A stretch of 20,513 nucleotides of DNA from a virus. Of the stretch, positions 16,243-20,513 are shown in pieces. Made by a program: the position numbers and the translations under genes. The stretch covers positions 1 through 20,513 of the IMG/VR virus record IMGVR_UViG_3300037493_001351. The stretch is one strand, 5' to 3'. The notes below the pieces were generated by a model, which was given only the letters and a program-made list of their open reading frames with translations, ran no database searches and was not told the origin of the DNA. The number at the start of each line of letters is the position of its first letter. Position 1 is the stretch's first letter.

Positions 16243-19200
16243 CTATAAGTGTGTCAAACCACCCTGTGCGTAGTTCACGCCGTACTTGGTTTTTAGTCGT
16301 GGGTCTTTCCACGATGTTTTCTCTACGTCACGCGCCAGCACCAGTGGGCCGGCCTGAATCTTTTCAGCCGCGCTCCACACGGGTTGCATGTCGGCCTTGT
16401 CGTAGAATTGTGACCCGCGGTATGGGTTCATACCAATCTGGCGCCACGAGGGGTCCTGTAGGGCCTCTGCAAGCATCCTGCGGACCTCGTCGTTGCTTGT
16501 GACTTGGTTGTCACCAACCATCATGGCAAACGGCGCCTTGCCTTGACCCTCTTCAAGTGCCAAGGGGGTCATTCCTTGTTCTCTGGTTCCAAGGCCCGCG
16601 CGAATGGCCCTGTTGGGGTCAGACTGGAACTCCACGTTCTTTAAGTGGCCTGTGTGACCATAAGCAATAGGCTTGCCTCCACTTGAAGGGTCGTGCATTG
16701 TGTCCACGTAAGTACCAAAGCGCTCGTACGCAGGAATGTCAAGGCGGTTACCAACGCGCATGCCCTGTGGCGCAAATAAATTCACACCCAAAATACCCTT
16801 ATCCTCAACCTGATTTCTATTTAGTGCAGAAGCAATGTCTGTGTCAGAGTGTGCTCTTGGCACTTCTGTTAACGGGCGAATTGGCCTGCGCTCGTTCATA
16901 ATGCGCAGGTAGTCAGCCTGTGATATTTTGCCTGTCATGTACGCTTCAAGCGCTTGGGCCAGTTGAGGGTCCTGCTGTTGTTTATATGGTTTTGCGTTGG
17001 CCTTGCGCCAAGACTCAAGCTTCTCAGGCGTCAGCTTGAGTATGTCGTACGCTGACTCAGCAAGGCGCGTCAGAACACCCGTCCTACCGCCTTTATCGTA
17101 GTGTGGTACACCAGTTAAACCACCCTTTGCGTACCCTGCATCCTCTGCCATGGTAATGTAGTCTTTGCTGATAAGCTGTGGTCTCTTAGGATAAGAGAAC
17201 CAAGCGTTGCCGTGGGGTTCCATGCCGATACGTGGCTTGATCTCATTGTACCAATCACGCACCGCAATATTCTGTGGCACCGCAGGGAACTGCACCCTTT
17301 GGTCTTCACCTGTTACTTTCCAACGATAGTCAGGGTGCAACACATCGTCTGTGTACTGCGCAGGCACATTGTCCACCTTAAACAAACGTGTACCAACCGC
17401 GCTTGTAGGCGCGCCTTTTGTAAAGGGGTCTGCGTGGTCTTCTAGGATGTTTGCATACTGCGGTACAGTTGGGGGCTTGCGTGTTCCAAGGCCCATACCA
17501 AGCAGGTCGCCGATTGCCTTGCGTCCCTCAAACGTTTGTCCGGCAATTGCCTTGACTGCGTCTTTGTCCATGATGTTGAATTGATCATTGAACGGAAGGT
17601 TTTTTAGCGTGCCTGTTGTCTTGGCTTTACTCAGAATAGCTTGGTTGATTTTCTCAATTTGCTCGGGTGTTACTTGGCCCGCGGCTTGGTTCTTATAGAA
17701 CGTATCAAGCACGTCGTTGAAAACGGTCTTGTTGGACCTGTGTTGATCCGGCGCACCAATGTAGTTGGTGTTGACCATAGGACGGCCGTTAAATTCCCTA
17801 GAGGTTTGAATTAGTTTGTTGGCGGCCTCTTCACTGTCGTTCATCCACACAGACTTGTTGGCCGCGTGAAGAGGACTGGTATTTTGGAAGTTAGGGAAAC
17901 CTGTGCCACCCCAACGACCGCCGTGAACACCCTGTCTGTCAGACATGTGCACACCAAGGTAGTGATCTTGGTACGGCCTAATGGCGTCGCTGAACTTAAT
18001 TTGCTGTGTTGGCTTTGGTGCAAACTTTGCAACCTCTTCGGCAGTGGGTATGACCAACTGGCCCGGGGCCTGACCAAACGCGCCGGCAATTTTACCCGCT
18101 ACAGTTTTTGCAATACCCGTACGGCCACCGCCGTCAAAGTGCTCGACGGCGGACAGGCCGCCGATCGGCTTTTTTATTGCACCACCTTTTTTATACTTAG
18201 GCGGTGTGCCATCTGGTTGCAACACTGACTTGGTTTGGTCTTCTGTGTTGAAAATGTTTTGAAGCAAATGAAGAGCACCACCAGCCGCGGTATAAGCCGC
18301 ACCAGCCGCTTTAATTTTAGGGTTGGGCGCCATCATTGCCGTGGCGCCGGCAGAAGTAATTCCGCTGGTCAATCCACCTGCCCAATCGCCTTGATTAAAT
18401 TTCTGTGCCGCGTCGTATCCTTGTTGGCCTGCAATAGCGCCCATGACACCACCACCAACTTTACCAGAACCAACGTTTTTAGCCCTGTTAGCAATCACCT
18501 GCATTTGTAATTGAGCGGGTGTCAATTGCCTTGGAGGGGCTAGGTTTGCAAGGTTAGCCCGTGTTGGTGCCACACCAAGGTTTGGAGTTTGTGCAACAGG
18601 CGGCGCAGGAGGGGGCATTGCGCTAGGAAAAGTTGAAAAGGGTGAGGCTTGCATTGGTAGCGGGCCTTGAGGAATGTTTCTTACAACTTTATTTCCTTGT
18701 GACAAAACGCTAGCAATTTCATCCGCATGTGATTTTGTGTTGGGGTTCATTGCCTCAACAGTTGGACCAATGTGTTGAGGGTATTCTTGGTAGATCCAGT
18801 TTTTTGTGCCATACCCTCGGTCTTGCGTTGGTGTTGTTGCCTGTGTAGGCGCAGGTTGATTTTGCGCCTGTGCTTGAGCTTGTGCAATTGCAATACGTTG
18901 CTGATTCGCTGTAAGTTCGTTGCGTGCTTCGCGCGAAAGCTGTCTTTCTTCGCCCTCTGTTGGGGGGCGCAACATGTGGCCAACACCCACGCCGGCAACA
19001 CCACCAAAACCGGCGGCAATTGCATCATCTATACCGACTTGTCTGGACGCAACTTTTTCGTTGGTTGTAGTAGTAGTAGAAGGATTCCATGTTTTTAAAT
19101 CGGCCTCGTCAATTGGTGCCAACGTAATTCCGTGTGCAGGTTTTTTTTCAGCCATTGCTTGGGTTCCTGTGCTAATTTTTTGCATCGGGGGTGTTGGCAT

Positions 19201-19629
19201 TGTGCCAACGGGTACATCACCATAGCCGCCGTGCTTGGTAATTCTTGTAATGTACCCACGTGTCTCGTCGGGCAAATATCCAGTTTTAAAAAAGTTGCTG
19301 TTTGGGCCGTAGTTGTATGCCACAGAAGCAAGCATCTTGTTACCACCAAAGCGGTCAAGATTTTCTTTTAAATACCTCACGCCGCCGTCGATGTTTTGGT
19401 CTACATTATAAGGGTCGATCTTTAACCCTTTAGCCGTGTTAGGCATGATCTGCATAAGACCAATTGCACCTTTGCCAGACTTCCTCTTAACACTGTGCAT
19501 AAAGTCGTCGTTCTCTGCCTTTGCGGTAGACAAAGCAAACGCGGGGTCCACGCCGTATTTTTCAGCGGCCCTAACAACTTTATCTGCCAGAGCTTTCTGT
19601 TGGGGGTTTAAAGAATTAACCCATTCCAT
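16243..19629 (-). CDS. modular virion-type lytic transglycosylase, polyvalent protein
   Basis: This 1128-residue protein, read from ATG at 19629 down, begins with an SLT lytic transglycosylase: AKAEND (catalytic-type E39), GAIGLMQIMPNTA (54-66) and AYNYGP (104-109). It would cut peptidoglycan during DNA entry or release. A Pro/Gln/Ala-rich linker follows (about 145-375), then a Gly/Ala-rich hydrophobic segment (about 388-458) that could cross or insert in membrane. Two further modules (about 517-832 and 859-1119) resemble domains I know from giant phage polyvalent or internal proteins: QHRSNKTVFNDVLDTF in the first; RLDIPAYER, QIGMNPYRGSQFYDK and GPLVLAR in the second. Y-x-(K/Q)-G-G linkers separate them. 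It is probably an ejected or virion-associated protein. It starts two bases after its upstream neighbour. Confidence 0.85.
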   Translation of the reverse strand: MEWVNSLNPQQKALADKVVRAAEKYGVDPAFALSTAKAENDDFMHSVKRKSGKGAIGLMQIMPNTAKGLKIDPYNVDQNIDGGVRYLKENLDRFGGNKMLASVAYNYGPNSNFFKTGYLPDETRGYITRITKHGGYGDVPVGTMPTPPMQKISTGTQAMAEKKPAHGITLAPIDEADLKTWNPSTTTTTNEKVASRQVGIDDAIAAGFGGVAGVGVGHMLRPPTEGEERQLSREARNELTANQQRIAIAQAQAQAQNQPAPTQATTPTQDRGYGTKNWIYQEYPQHIGPTVEAMNPNTKSHADEIASVLSQGNKVVRNIPQGPLPMQASPFSTFPSAMPPPAPPVAQTPNLGVAPTRANLANLAPPRQLTPAQLQMQVIANRAKNVGSGKVGGGVMGAIAGQQGYDAAQKFNQGDWAGGLTSGITSAGATAMMAPNPKIKAAGAAYTAAGGALHLLQNIFNTEDQTKSVLQPDGTPPKYKKGGAIKKPIGGLSAVEHFDGGGRTGIAKTVAGKIAGAFGQAPGQLVIPTAEEVAKFAPKPTQQIKFSDAIRPYQDHYLGVHMSDRQGVHGGRWGGTGFPNFQNTSPLHAANKSVWMNDSEEAANKLIQTSREFNGRPMVNTNYIGAPDQHRSNKTVFNDVLDTFYKNQAAGQVTPEQIEKINQAILSKAKTTGTLKNLPFNDQFNIMDKDAVKAIAGQTFEGRKAIGDLLGMGLGTRKPPTVPQYANILEDHADPFTKGAPTSAVGTRLFKVDNVPAQYTDDVLHPDYRWKVTGEDQRVQFPAVPQNIAVRDWYNEIKPRIGMEPHGNAWFSYPKRPQLISKDYITMAEDAGYAKGGLTGVPHYDKGGRTGVLTRLAESAYDILKLTPEKLESWRKANAKPYKQQQDPQLAQALEAYMTGKISQADYLRIMNERRPIRPLTEVPRAHSDTDIASALNRNQVEDKGILGVNLFAPQGMRVGNRLDIPAYERFGTYVDTMHDPSSGGKPIAYGHTGHLKNVEFQSDPNRAIRAGLGTREQGMTPLALEEGQGKAPFAMMVGDNQVTSNDEVRRMLAEALQDPSWRQIGMNPYRGSQFYDKADMQPVWSAAEKIQAGPLVLARDVEKTSWKDPRLKTKYGVNYAQGGLTHL

Positions 19630-19631
19630 GG

Positions 19632-20513
19632 TTAGGATCTTTCCAACGCAGGATCAAACGCGGGAGCATTAGACAGACCAAGTACTTTTGTCATGCGGTC
19701 GTACTGGTCTTTCTTCAACGCCATCATTTCAGGCGATCTTCTAAATTGTTGGTACGTCGCGCCGTTTGATTCCATTTTGTTCCAAAGGTCTCTGCGTTCT
19801 TTGGCGTTTGTAGCCTCGTATTTAACAGCCCTAGCAACCATCATAATGTTTTGTGCTGTCAAACGAGATGGGTCTCCAGTGGCTTGTTTAATCAACGCGC
19901 GCTCGTTGTCAGACACAGCGCCTTGACCCTGAATCATCTTCGAGCCCTGTAATGAAAGGAAGGCAAAGTCACGCGCCAGTTGTTGCGCCGCAGACAGGCG
20001 AGCTTCTTTTACTTTAGGGTCTTTAATGTTTCTGATACTTGGGTCAAGCTGTACCGCCAACTGGTTAACATCGTTGATGCCAATAGAACCCATCGGCGTT
20101 CTAAGTCCTAGGTCAGCAAGGTTAAGGATGGCAGACTGTACTGTGTCTCTACCCAATAAGTTAACCAACTCTGGAACCTTTTGAACGTTCTGTGAAATGC
20201 GGTTTGCAACAAGAATGTTGCTGTCTGCGCTATCAGCAGAGGCTTGCAAATCTTCAGAGGCTTTAGAAGCCACTTTAATTGCTTCAGCGTTGGTTGCAAT
20301 TTGTCGTTCTGTTTCAACCTTACGCGCCGCTTCTAACTGTCTTTGTTTTTCGACAAGGTCTTGTGCAGTTCCCGGATCAAAAACACGAGCCGCAGGAGCA
20401 CCCGCTACAGGAGCCGCAGGAGCACCCGCTACAGGAGCCGCAGGAGCACCCGCTACAGGAGCCGCAGGAGCACCCGCTACAGGAGCCGCAGGAGCACCCG
20501 CTACAGGAGCCGC
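19632..20513 (-). CDS. hypothetical virion-region protein with PVAGAPAA repeats (5' truncated)
   Basis: On the minus strand the frame is open from the window edge at 20513 to the TAA at 19632-19634, so at least 293 residues are encoded and the start is outside. A GTG at 20273 could give a shorter product, but the frame stays open and coding-like upstream. The visible N-terminal part is (PVAGAPAA)n from a 24-bp repeat, then ARVFDPGTAQDLVEKQRQLE, a long charged helix (about 45 residues, likely coiled coil), then a helical domain with VPELVNLLGRDTVQSAILNL and SIRNIKDPKVKEARLSAAQQ. It ends two bases before the transglycosylase. No known family is recognised. Context suggests a structural or ejection protein. 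Confidence 0.7.
   Translation of the reverse strand, partial: AAPVAGAPAAPVAGAPAAPVAGAPAAPVAGAPAAPVAGAPAARVFDPGTAQDLVEKQRQLEAARKVETERQIATNAEAIKVASKASEDLQASADSADSNILVANRISQNVQKVPELVNLLGRDTVQSAILNLADLGLRTPMGSIGINDVNQLAVQLDPSIRNIKDPKVKEARLSAAQQLARDFAFLSLQGSKMIQGQGAVSDNERALIKQATGDPSRLTAQNIMMVARAVKYEATNAKERRDLWNKMESNGATYQQFRRSPEMMALKKDQYDRMTKVLGLSNAPAFDPALERS
20388..20513 (-). repeat. 24-bp perfect tandem repeat, five copies plus part, running off the window
   Basis: A 24-bp unit starting AGCCGCAGGAGC on the plus strand repeats at 20388, 20412, 20436, 20460 and 20484, with six more bases to 20513. All five copies are identical and in frame, encoding P-V-A-G-A-P-A-A on the minus strand. Complete identity implies recent expansion or active slippage. 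The true copy number is unknown because the window ends here. Confidence 0.95.

Follow-up and report, generated by a model that had tools for sequence, protein, structure and literature searches.

A predicted phage ejection protein with exchangeable, tag-trailed modules and a putative −1 frameshift cassette

In this work we analyse an 1128-amino-acid (aa) modular, probable virion protein encoded on the minus strand at positions 16243..19629 of the IMG/VR viral record IMGVR_UViG_3300037493_001351. The window, meaning the whole stretch of 20,513 bases analysed here, is the complete record, which is itself a genome fragment because its upstream open reading frame (ORF) is cut at the edge. Taken as a whole, the comparisons of sequences and predicted structures lean towards a gp16-type ejection (internal virion) protein, in which an N-terminal SLT part A (residues 1-478) would precede a pair of exchangeable, polyvalent-type cargo modules, B (479-832) and C (833-1128), and the codons of the first tag would hold a −1 frameshift cassette. 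At the C-terminal edge of each module we propose a short disordered tag, [YF]xxGG, often extended by another GG unit, for example HFDxGG. The module-and-tag anatomy is the part in which we have high confidence; the functions proposed for the tag and for its codons are graded where they are discussed.

The motifs on which this anatomy rests had been noticed in the original prediction, made from the DNA letters, and the three positions given there proved exact: YKKGG at residue 479, YAKGG at 833 and YAQGG at 1120, with HFDGGG located at 497 and HYDKGG at 843. Tag 1, YKKGGAIKK (residues 479-487; 18169..18195, minus strand, like every feature of this protein), is placed by motif position and by the codon identity of the core at residues 479-499, while HFDGGGRTG (497-505; 18115..18141), placed by motif position, forms the second half of linker 1. 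Linker 2, YAKGGLTGVPHYDKGGRTG (833-851; 17077..17133), comprises the tag closing module B and the leader of module C, and the terminal tag, YAQGGLTHL (1120-1128; 16246..16272), is the normal protein end. Tags 1 and 2 continue, as had been stated, into HFDGGGRTG and HYDKGGRTG, and the third reads GGLTHL-stop. The general form Y-x-K-G-G fits tags 1 and 2 and is loose wording for the third, since that one has Q instead of K. The pattern [YF]x[KQ]GG occurs four times in the ORF against 0.08 expected in shuffles, none of 5000 of which reached four, so its frequency is not due to chance.

In the AlphaFold model of module B (folded part 521-834; 17128..18069; mean predicted local distance difference test score, pLDDT, 79.8) runs of at least three residues below 50 are found at 492-520 and 835-848 only, and in that of module C (folded part 852-1121; 16267..17076; mean pLDDT 91.0) only at 1122-1128 (QGGLTHL). 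Because values below 50 are confined to the tag stretches flanking B and C, the motifs do sit at domain edges, in agreement with the earlier claim that they delimit modules: predicted disorder falls at the tags, just outside two folded C-terminal modules. This disorder, located exactly at the fold edges in both models, speaks in favour of regarding the tags as flexible linkers, that is, Gly-Gly spacers which separate cargo domains and aid threading through the tail, with the conserved neighbouring residues inherited rather than selected for binding and the lysine-coding heptamer described below a coincidence of codon choice. We consider that explanation improbable on the grounds given with the single-module genes.

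The N-terminal part is the one with recognizable homology. A lytic transglycosylase domain (PF01464, SLT) was matched at residues 20-111 (19297..19572) with E 1.2e-16, and the top head-and-packaging match was PHROG 342, internal virion protein with endolysin domain, at residues 15-209 (E 1.1e-17). This alignment covers only positions 16-234 of the 1235 in the profile, the match ending near residue 209. Beyond the SLT domain the protein gave zero Pfam matches above cut-off, and an NCBIfam scan returned transglycosylases only, all below cut-off. An N-terminal SLT domain, a late gene beside virion genes and large size are shared with the T7 gp16-type ejection proteins of PHROG 342; for gp16-like proteins, lengths between 609 and 1337 aa are reported, and ejection proteins are reported to exchange domains (PMC8954989). 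The difference is that past residue 209 or so the remainder consists of tagged modules B and C, which the passages of PMC8954989 at hand do not mention.

The claim of exchangeable modules was borne out when each module was searched separately and the combinations were mapped. The relatives fetched first comprised 33 loci with module C and 19 with module B. Compared with the window, the SLT stretch of part A is of two main kinds (about 97-99% or 30-41% identity) and module B of several (85-98, about 70, 50, and 28-30%), and module C has 82-99% identity across the loci except L033 (74%). Linker 1 keeps 64-92% everywhere but in L033, even where A and B stand at about 30%. Between L008 and L026 the DNA identity is 1.00 in the SLT stretch and A2 and 0.37 in B, and L012 and L013, at 0.34 in A2, agree at 0.98 over linker 1 and at 0.99 over C. 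A change-point scan over 171 non-independent pairs drawn from 19 sequences gave 245 breaks clustered at residues 125-174 (40), 400-524 (95) and 825-899 (109), with 1 elsewhere; among the sharp identity breaks 22 of 25 lie inside residues 462-510 or 826-858, which make up 7.3% of the length. Insertions fall between B and C and after C. L022/L023/L035 and L033 have an ART-PolyVal domain inserted between modules B and C (E 7.3e-10 in L022, above cut-off, and 1.3e-6 in L033, just below), about 350 aa follow module C in L033/L034, and L131 holds a relative of that extra stretch, as judged by eye. Modules thus swap independently and extra modules enter at the motifs in relatives; the comparison shows that phages exchange modules at the tags. 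The protein encoded by L131:2-5737 is more than 1900 aa long and contains module C as well as the relative of the L033 extra module, its boundaries marked by GGAVHMAxGG. The L033 C-terminus (residues 1579-1623) is a 45-aa tail matching PHROG 16028 with E 7.1e-26.

The conservation of tag DNA between unrelated flanks, together with breakpoints falling at the tags, is also the basis of another explanation, by which the tags are recombination seams whose DNA is conserved through short-sequence recombination and recent spread, with no frameshift involved. We regard it as unlikely, for reasons that lie in a second, unrelated family and are presented with it.

The right end of the protein was read previously as a last module cut short, and this was not borne out. 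One of the 33 module-C loci is open at its right end; 30 of the other 32 stop at GGLTHL like the window protein, and L033 and L034 continue. Relatives ending at this point with no extra module, the finding named in advance as counting against the idea, are therefore nearly the rule, 2 of the 32 loci carrying an extra module. A further module at the end does exist in the relatives L033/L034; as something lost from the window protein it finds no support. That a terminal module was lost and the protein ends at its stub, which the 350 aa or so past the equivalent tag in those two loci would favour, is extremely improbable, because the identical end in the 30 loci is accompanied by the same kind of tag at the ends of distant homologues. 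Truncation of the protein was rejected on the same 30 ends.

Since the motif is kept whether a further module comes next, the protein stops there or the module has a gene to itself, it is shown by comparison to behave as a tag trailing each module and not as the stub of a lost one. An aromatic-x(1-2)-GG motif lies within 45 aa after module C in 34 of 37 non-redundant copies (12% of random windows in the same proteins), and 12 of the 37 proteins end at most 26 aa past that GG. At the end of module B, GG is present in 24/24 (35% in random windows) and aromatic-x(1-2)-GG in 19/24 (12%), with six of the 24 proteins ending within 26 aa of the GG. The profile hidden Markov models (HMMs) of B and C were built from alignments including the tag; counting started from a separate QxGPLV anchor for module C and 25 aa before the HMM end for module B, so the B count, taken from the tag-inclusive model's own end, is less independent. 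Alignments A4/A6 were trimmed just past the GG, so that their invariant GG columns are partly by construction, and three of the 37 copies (L233, L304, L327) were excluded from them. Some locus scans were limited to ORFs of at least 150 aa. As a further argument we considered tag similarity within proteins versus between them (per-protein mean −5.08 against −6.41 shuffled), which was dropped as too weak, 27 of 1000 shuffles reaching the observed value. After module B in L298, L307, L309 and L290 there are tandem repeats of about 22 aa, KGGxVDIEAADARLxxAIxxRMA, with a GG tag in each.

In L199, L267 and L269 the modules are separate adjacent genes, and beside them lies the convergent ORF that the window also has. 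Their single-module genes end in KQGGLAQLKEAA, AQGGLSGLL, KSGGLTHLR, ARGGLAHLGAA, AQGGLAHLR, KKGGKVKKKKK and AKGGKVSGSHEDALKKILSKK; in L199, for example, a 291-aa gene with one module, a homologue of C, ends in TYKSGGLTHLR. A flexible linker has no reason to be at a protein end, and yet the ends counted above carry the tag and single-module genes retain it. The same genes bear on the possibility that the tags are processing sites: a protease of the phage or of its host would cleave at or near Gly-Gly, either ahead of packaging or once the protein has been delivered, and so release the modules. The motif does occupy every inter-module gap of the 1128-aa protein, and processing has been proposed for polyvalent proteins, with P1 DdrB cleaved before it is packaged, according to the passages of PMC5512222 at hand. 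A cut is, however, unnecessary where the tag ends the protein or closes a gene with one module, and no zincin-like metallopeptidase was among the Pfam matches to the protein up to E 1; we rate processing at the tags as quite unlikely.

With the polyvalent proteins (Iyer et al. 2017, PMC5512222) the window protein may share the presence of several unlike domains in one polypeptide that would be delivered: it has an SLT domain and two folded modules, and relatives add ART-PolyVal, PcfJ and Zeta toxin domains beside B or C. A processing peptidase, frequent and non-obligatory there, was not found in the Pfam scan. The main text of that paper uses neither 'linker' nor 'glycine', and its passages at hand describe neither the tags nor the frameshift cassette.

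The tag is also found outside the family of the window protein. DNA coding VQHFDxGG occurs in 76 stretches of viral contigs, 13 of them in the window family; when these and near-duplicate contexts had been removed, 46 non-redundant others were counted. A second GG lies at most 12 aa upstream in 29 of the 46 (background 11%). The scrambled control VHQFDxGG gave 35 stretches, 18 of them non-redundant and mostly in short ORFs, three having an upstream GG, and this difference is not what a flexible linker would lead one to expect. When 40 motif ORFs of at least 300 aa were scanned together, 47 PHROG families were matched, and among the 25 of these listed there are 21 tape measure families, 1 of DNA ejection (4 members), 1 endolysin and 2 unnamed. 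Six related contigs carry the tag in the transglycosylase-module gene and, three genes upstream of it, in a protein of the virion region; on the longest of them it is also present in ORFs adjoining the portal and capsid genes. The large replication-region ORFs of these contigs are without it, save one match near the N-terminus of a stop-to-stop ORF. Composition accounts for its matches to a small number of ORFs that are rich in glycine or lie on the opposite strand.

Because the same tag recurs in proteins matching tape-measure and DNA-ejection profiles, we infer, tentatively and at somewhat less than even confidence, that it may be a handling signal for the loading and delivery of virion cargo, marking proteins that are loaded into and delivered from the virion. 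Weighing against this proposal, at most seven of the 40 motif proteins match any single PHROG, most may match no named PHROG, and the argument for a function is one of association. No paper describing this tag or an ejection-protein frameshift was found in the literature as judged by titles and abstract openings. In L003, L004 and L005 (MW202701 and the cultured Roseobacter phages CRP-9 and CRP-207) module C is located in a gene between portal and coat. After it come FAKGG-type tags and a segment with the motif SEGE(F/Y)V; in CRP-207 (L005) this segment matches a tape-measure PHROG.

The codons of tag 1 have features of their own. In the linker 1 core the order is GGTGG, six bases, an in-frame A_AAA_AAG, 4-5 bases and a GC hairpin of 6-7 bp. 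In the window these are a Shine-Dalgarno (SD)-like GGTGG of the class GGNGG (18182..18186), a putative −1 slippery heptamer at codons 485-487 (18169..18175), the hairpin CGGCGG-CCTGT-CCGCCG 5 nt past the heptamer (18147..18163), in which 6 of 7 pairs are invariant over 20 distinct rows, and a −1-frame TGA (18134..18136) that would close a predicted short product after ADRRPVRRRAL. The invariant GC stem is 6 bp long and starts 5 nt past the heptamer, or 4 nt counting an A-U pair. Parts and distances match published search rules, by which an SD-like GGNGG lies 6-17 nt upstream and a structure 5-8 nt downstream (PMC4066793), as well as the case of dnaX, on which one ribosome in two shifts frame and terminates after a single further codon (PMC5009743), as far as the passages at hand describe them.

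The heptamer is present in 23 of 24 family coding sequences, the exception being L033, which is without the linker. Its first base is the last base of an ATA (16) or GTA (7) codon, which account for 8% of Ile and 19% of Val codons in the family, and the −1 frame runs for 8 codons before its stop in 21 of 23, the window and L007 having 11. For 50 pairs in which A and B are both unrelated, codon identity at identical residues of the linker 1 core, defined as residues 479-499, is 756/872 (0.87), with B at 0.42 where 0.42 is expected; for 28 pairs with related flanks it is 0.91, against 0.73-0.75 in the modules. In RNA folding six sequences beat their shuffles (z −2.6 to −4.2), the 61-nt stretch of the window with z −4.2, and synonymous variation at the slippery site is among the lowest in a windowed comparison, though equally low at residues 1096-1117. 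That tag 1 holds a dnaX-type −1 frameshift cassette in the window family is, on these features, the somewhat better supported assumption.

A cassette of the same type in a second family makes the lead much stronger. This family, 10 loci among the listed matches carrying module C, has proteins of 1252-2039 aa, some cut by contig ends, and its N-terminal part gave no credible match to part A of the window protein (best E 0.16); one member, L218, carries a Zeta toxin domain as well (E 5.6e-12). The N-terminal part is separated from the modules by FAEGGxVKK or MAEGGxVKK, whose coding sequence shows GGNGG, a six-base gap and A_AAA_AAG in 10/10. The −1 frame is closed after exactly one codon in all ten, through TAA, TAG and TGA alike, the codons after the heptamer being CCT AAA, CCT AGA, CCT GAA or TCT GAA. 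An 8-bp stem starts 6 nt past the heptamer in 10/10, in two main sequence versions and with U-G/A-U covariation at one pair; such a stem partner was found for 93 of 20,000 random 8-mers. Synonymous conservation at the site is equalled about 40 codons downstream. From this pattern −1 frameshifting in the second family appears likely. Recombination seams leave unexplained both the one-codon −1 stop reached through three stop codons in all members of an unrelated family and the covarying stem at constant spacing.

Across 967 genes (583,411 codons), loci selected by slip pattern having been excluded, the in-frame heptamer occurs 101 times, and the 41 occurrences after a tag GG are all in the two cassette families. 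The last scan fixed only EGGxVKK in slippery coding and nothing downstream, and 44 of 80 listed rows were kept as non-redundant. Among the matches listed, 26 large-ORF contexts have a stop within three codons 16 times in the −1 frame and 0 times in the +1 frame, and a GC stem is present in 12/12 contexts with a one-codon tail against 3/32 others; at random sites the frequencies are 2.8% for the stem and 9.6% for a one-codon −1 stop. In loci chosen by slip pattern, further GGAxKK tags with A_AAA_AAG were seen in L335, L353, L367, L375 and L348 and in L341, L343, L361, L374 and L376; in the latter five the −1 stop comes after two codons through a GCT codon.

Several observations argue against frameshifting at these tags. 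A larger, competing structure has the lowest energy when the window and other type-1 sequences are folded, 5 of 20 distinct rows, among them that of the window, do not keep the outermost A-U pair of the hairpin, and covariation is not visible in the window family because the hairpin never varies. High synonymous conservation is not unique to the slippery site, as it is equally high at residues 1096-1117 (window 16279-16344), the end of module C, and recombination at the tags can also keep tag DNA alike. AAA AAG is a common coding of KK in GGxxKK tags (14 of 26 contexts outside the window family), with the full heptamer in 8 of those 26, all 8 from the second family. Finally, 9 of the 12 one-codon contexts among the matches listed share a related PxGFADGG-type linker, so that independent origins are few, about four groups and the window family.

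If the cassette operates as predicted, some ribosomes would shift by −1 at tag 1 and stop early, giving a short transglycosylase that ends in YKKGGAIKK and a basic tail, and unshifted ribosomes would read through to the long product, which includes B and C. The short product would be a part with a terminal tag, resembling the single-module genes, and one gene would in this way set the ratio of bare to effector-bearing ejection protein. dnaX (tau/gamma) shares A_AAA_AAG, the upstream SD-like element, the downstream stem, the early −1 stop and the shorter product (passages of PMC5009743 and PMC4066793); it differs in that the putative window cassette lies between the structural part and the effector modules of a virion protein and that its −1 stop comes after 11 codons instead of 1. 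Lambda gpG/gpGT is likewise a phage −1 frameshift, by which an assembly protein is produced as two variants at a defined ratio (passages of PMC5009743), with the difference that the lambda shift leads to the longer form and the window shift would lead to the shorter.

A wider idea, which we offer as speculative, is that tailed phages share a general cargo system with a [YF]xxGG tag, portable among unrelated folds, which would mark any module for virion loading and delivery and whose codons in several unrelated families serve as a −1 cassette dosing effectors. If this is true, there would be a sequence signal for delivered virion cargo, by which injected effectors could be found from the tag alone, and a route of effector dosing in which one gene gives bare and armed ejection protein at a fixed ratio. 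It also corrects the notion of such proteins as truncated.

Regarding the modules themselves, module B matched no PDB fold at E at most 0.001 (best Foldseek E 0.74), and its best VIA row, a YTH domain with Z 5.0, root mean square deviation 4.5 and 149 aligned, led nowhere. Among PDB folds none was found for module C at E at most 0.001 or Z of at least 2. Module C resembles other predicted phage proteins, with names such as PcfJ-like, ART-PolyVal-like, LT_GEWL, Zeta toxin and tail lysozyme, and has BFVD structure matches to small phage proteins, e.g. U5Q1I1. It bears a weak likeness to the mycobacteriophage L5 gp82 family (PF25735) and PHROG 586 (E 6.5e-4), from which it differs by about 100 further residues; PF25735 was matched in L218 with E 9.3e-4, and every match to it is below the curated cut-off. 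A profile search of viral contigs gave at least 576 confirmed stretches of module C, and a collection of 84,980 species genomes gave 9 loci only. At the edge of the window the upstream ORF (20383-20513) contains head-to-tail 24-bp units coding AAPVAGAP, which run past the contig end.

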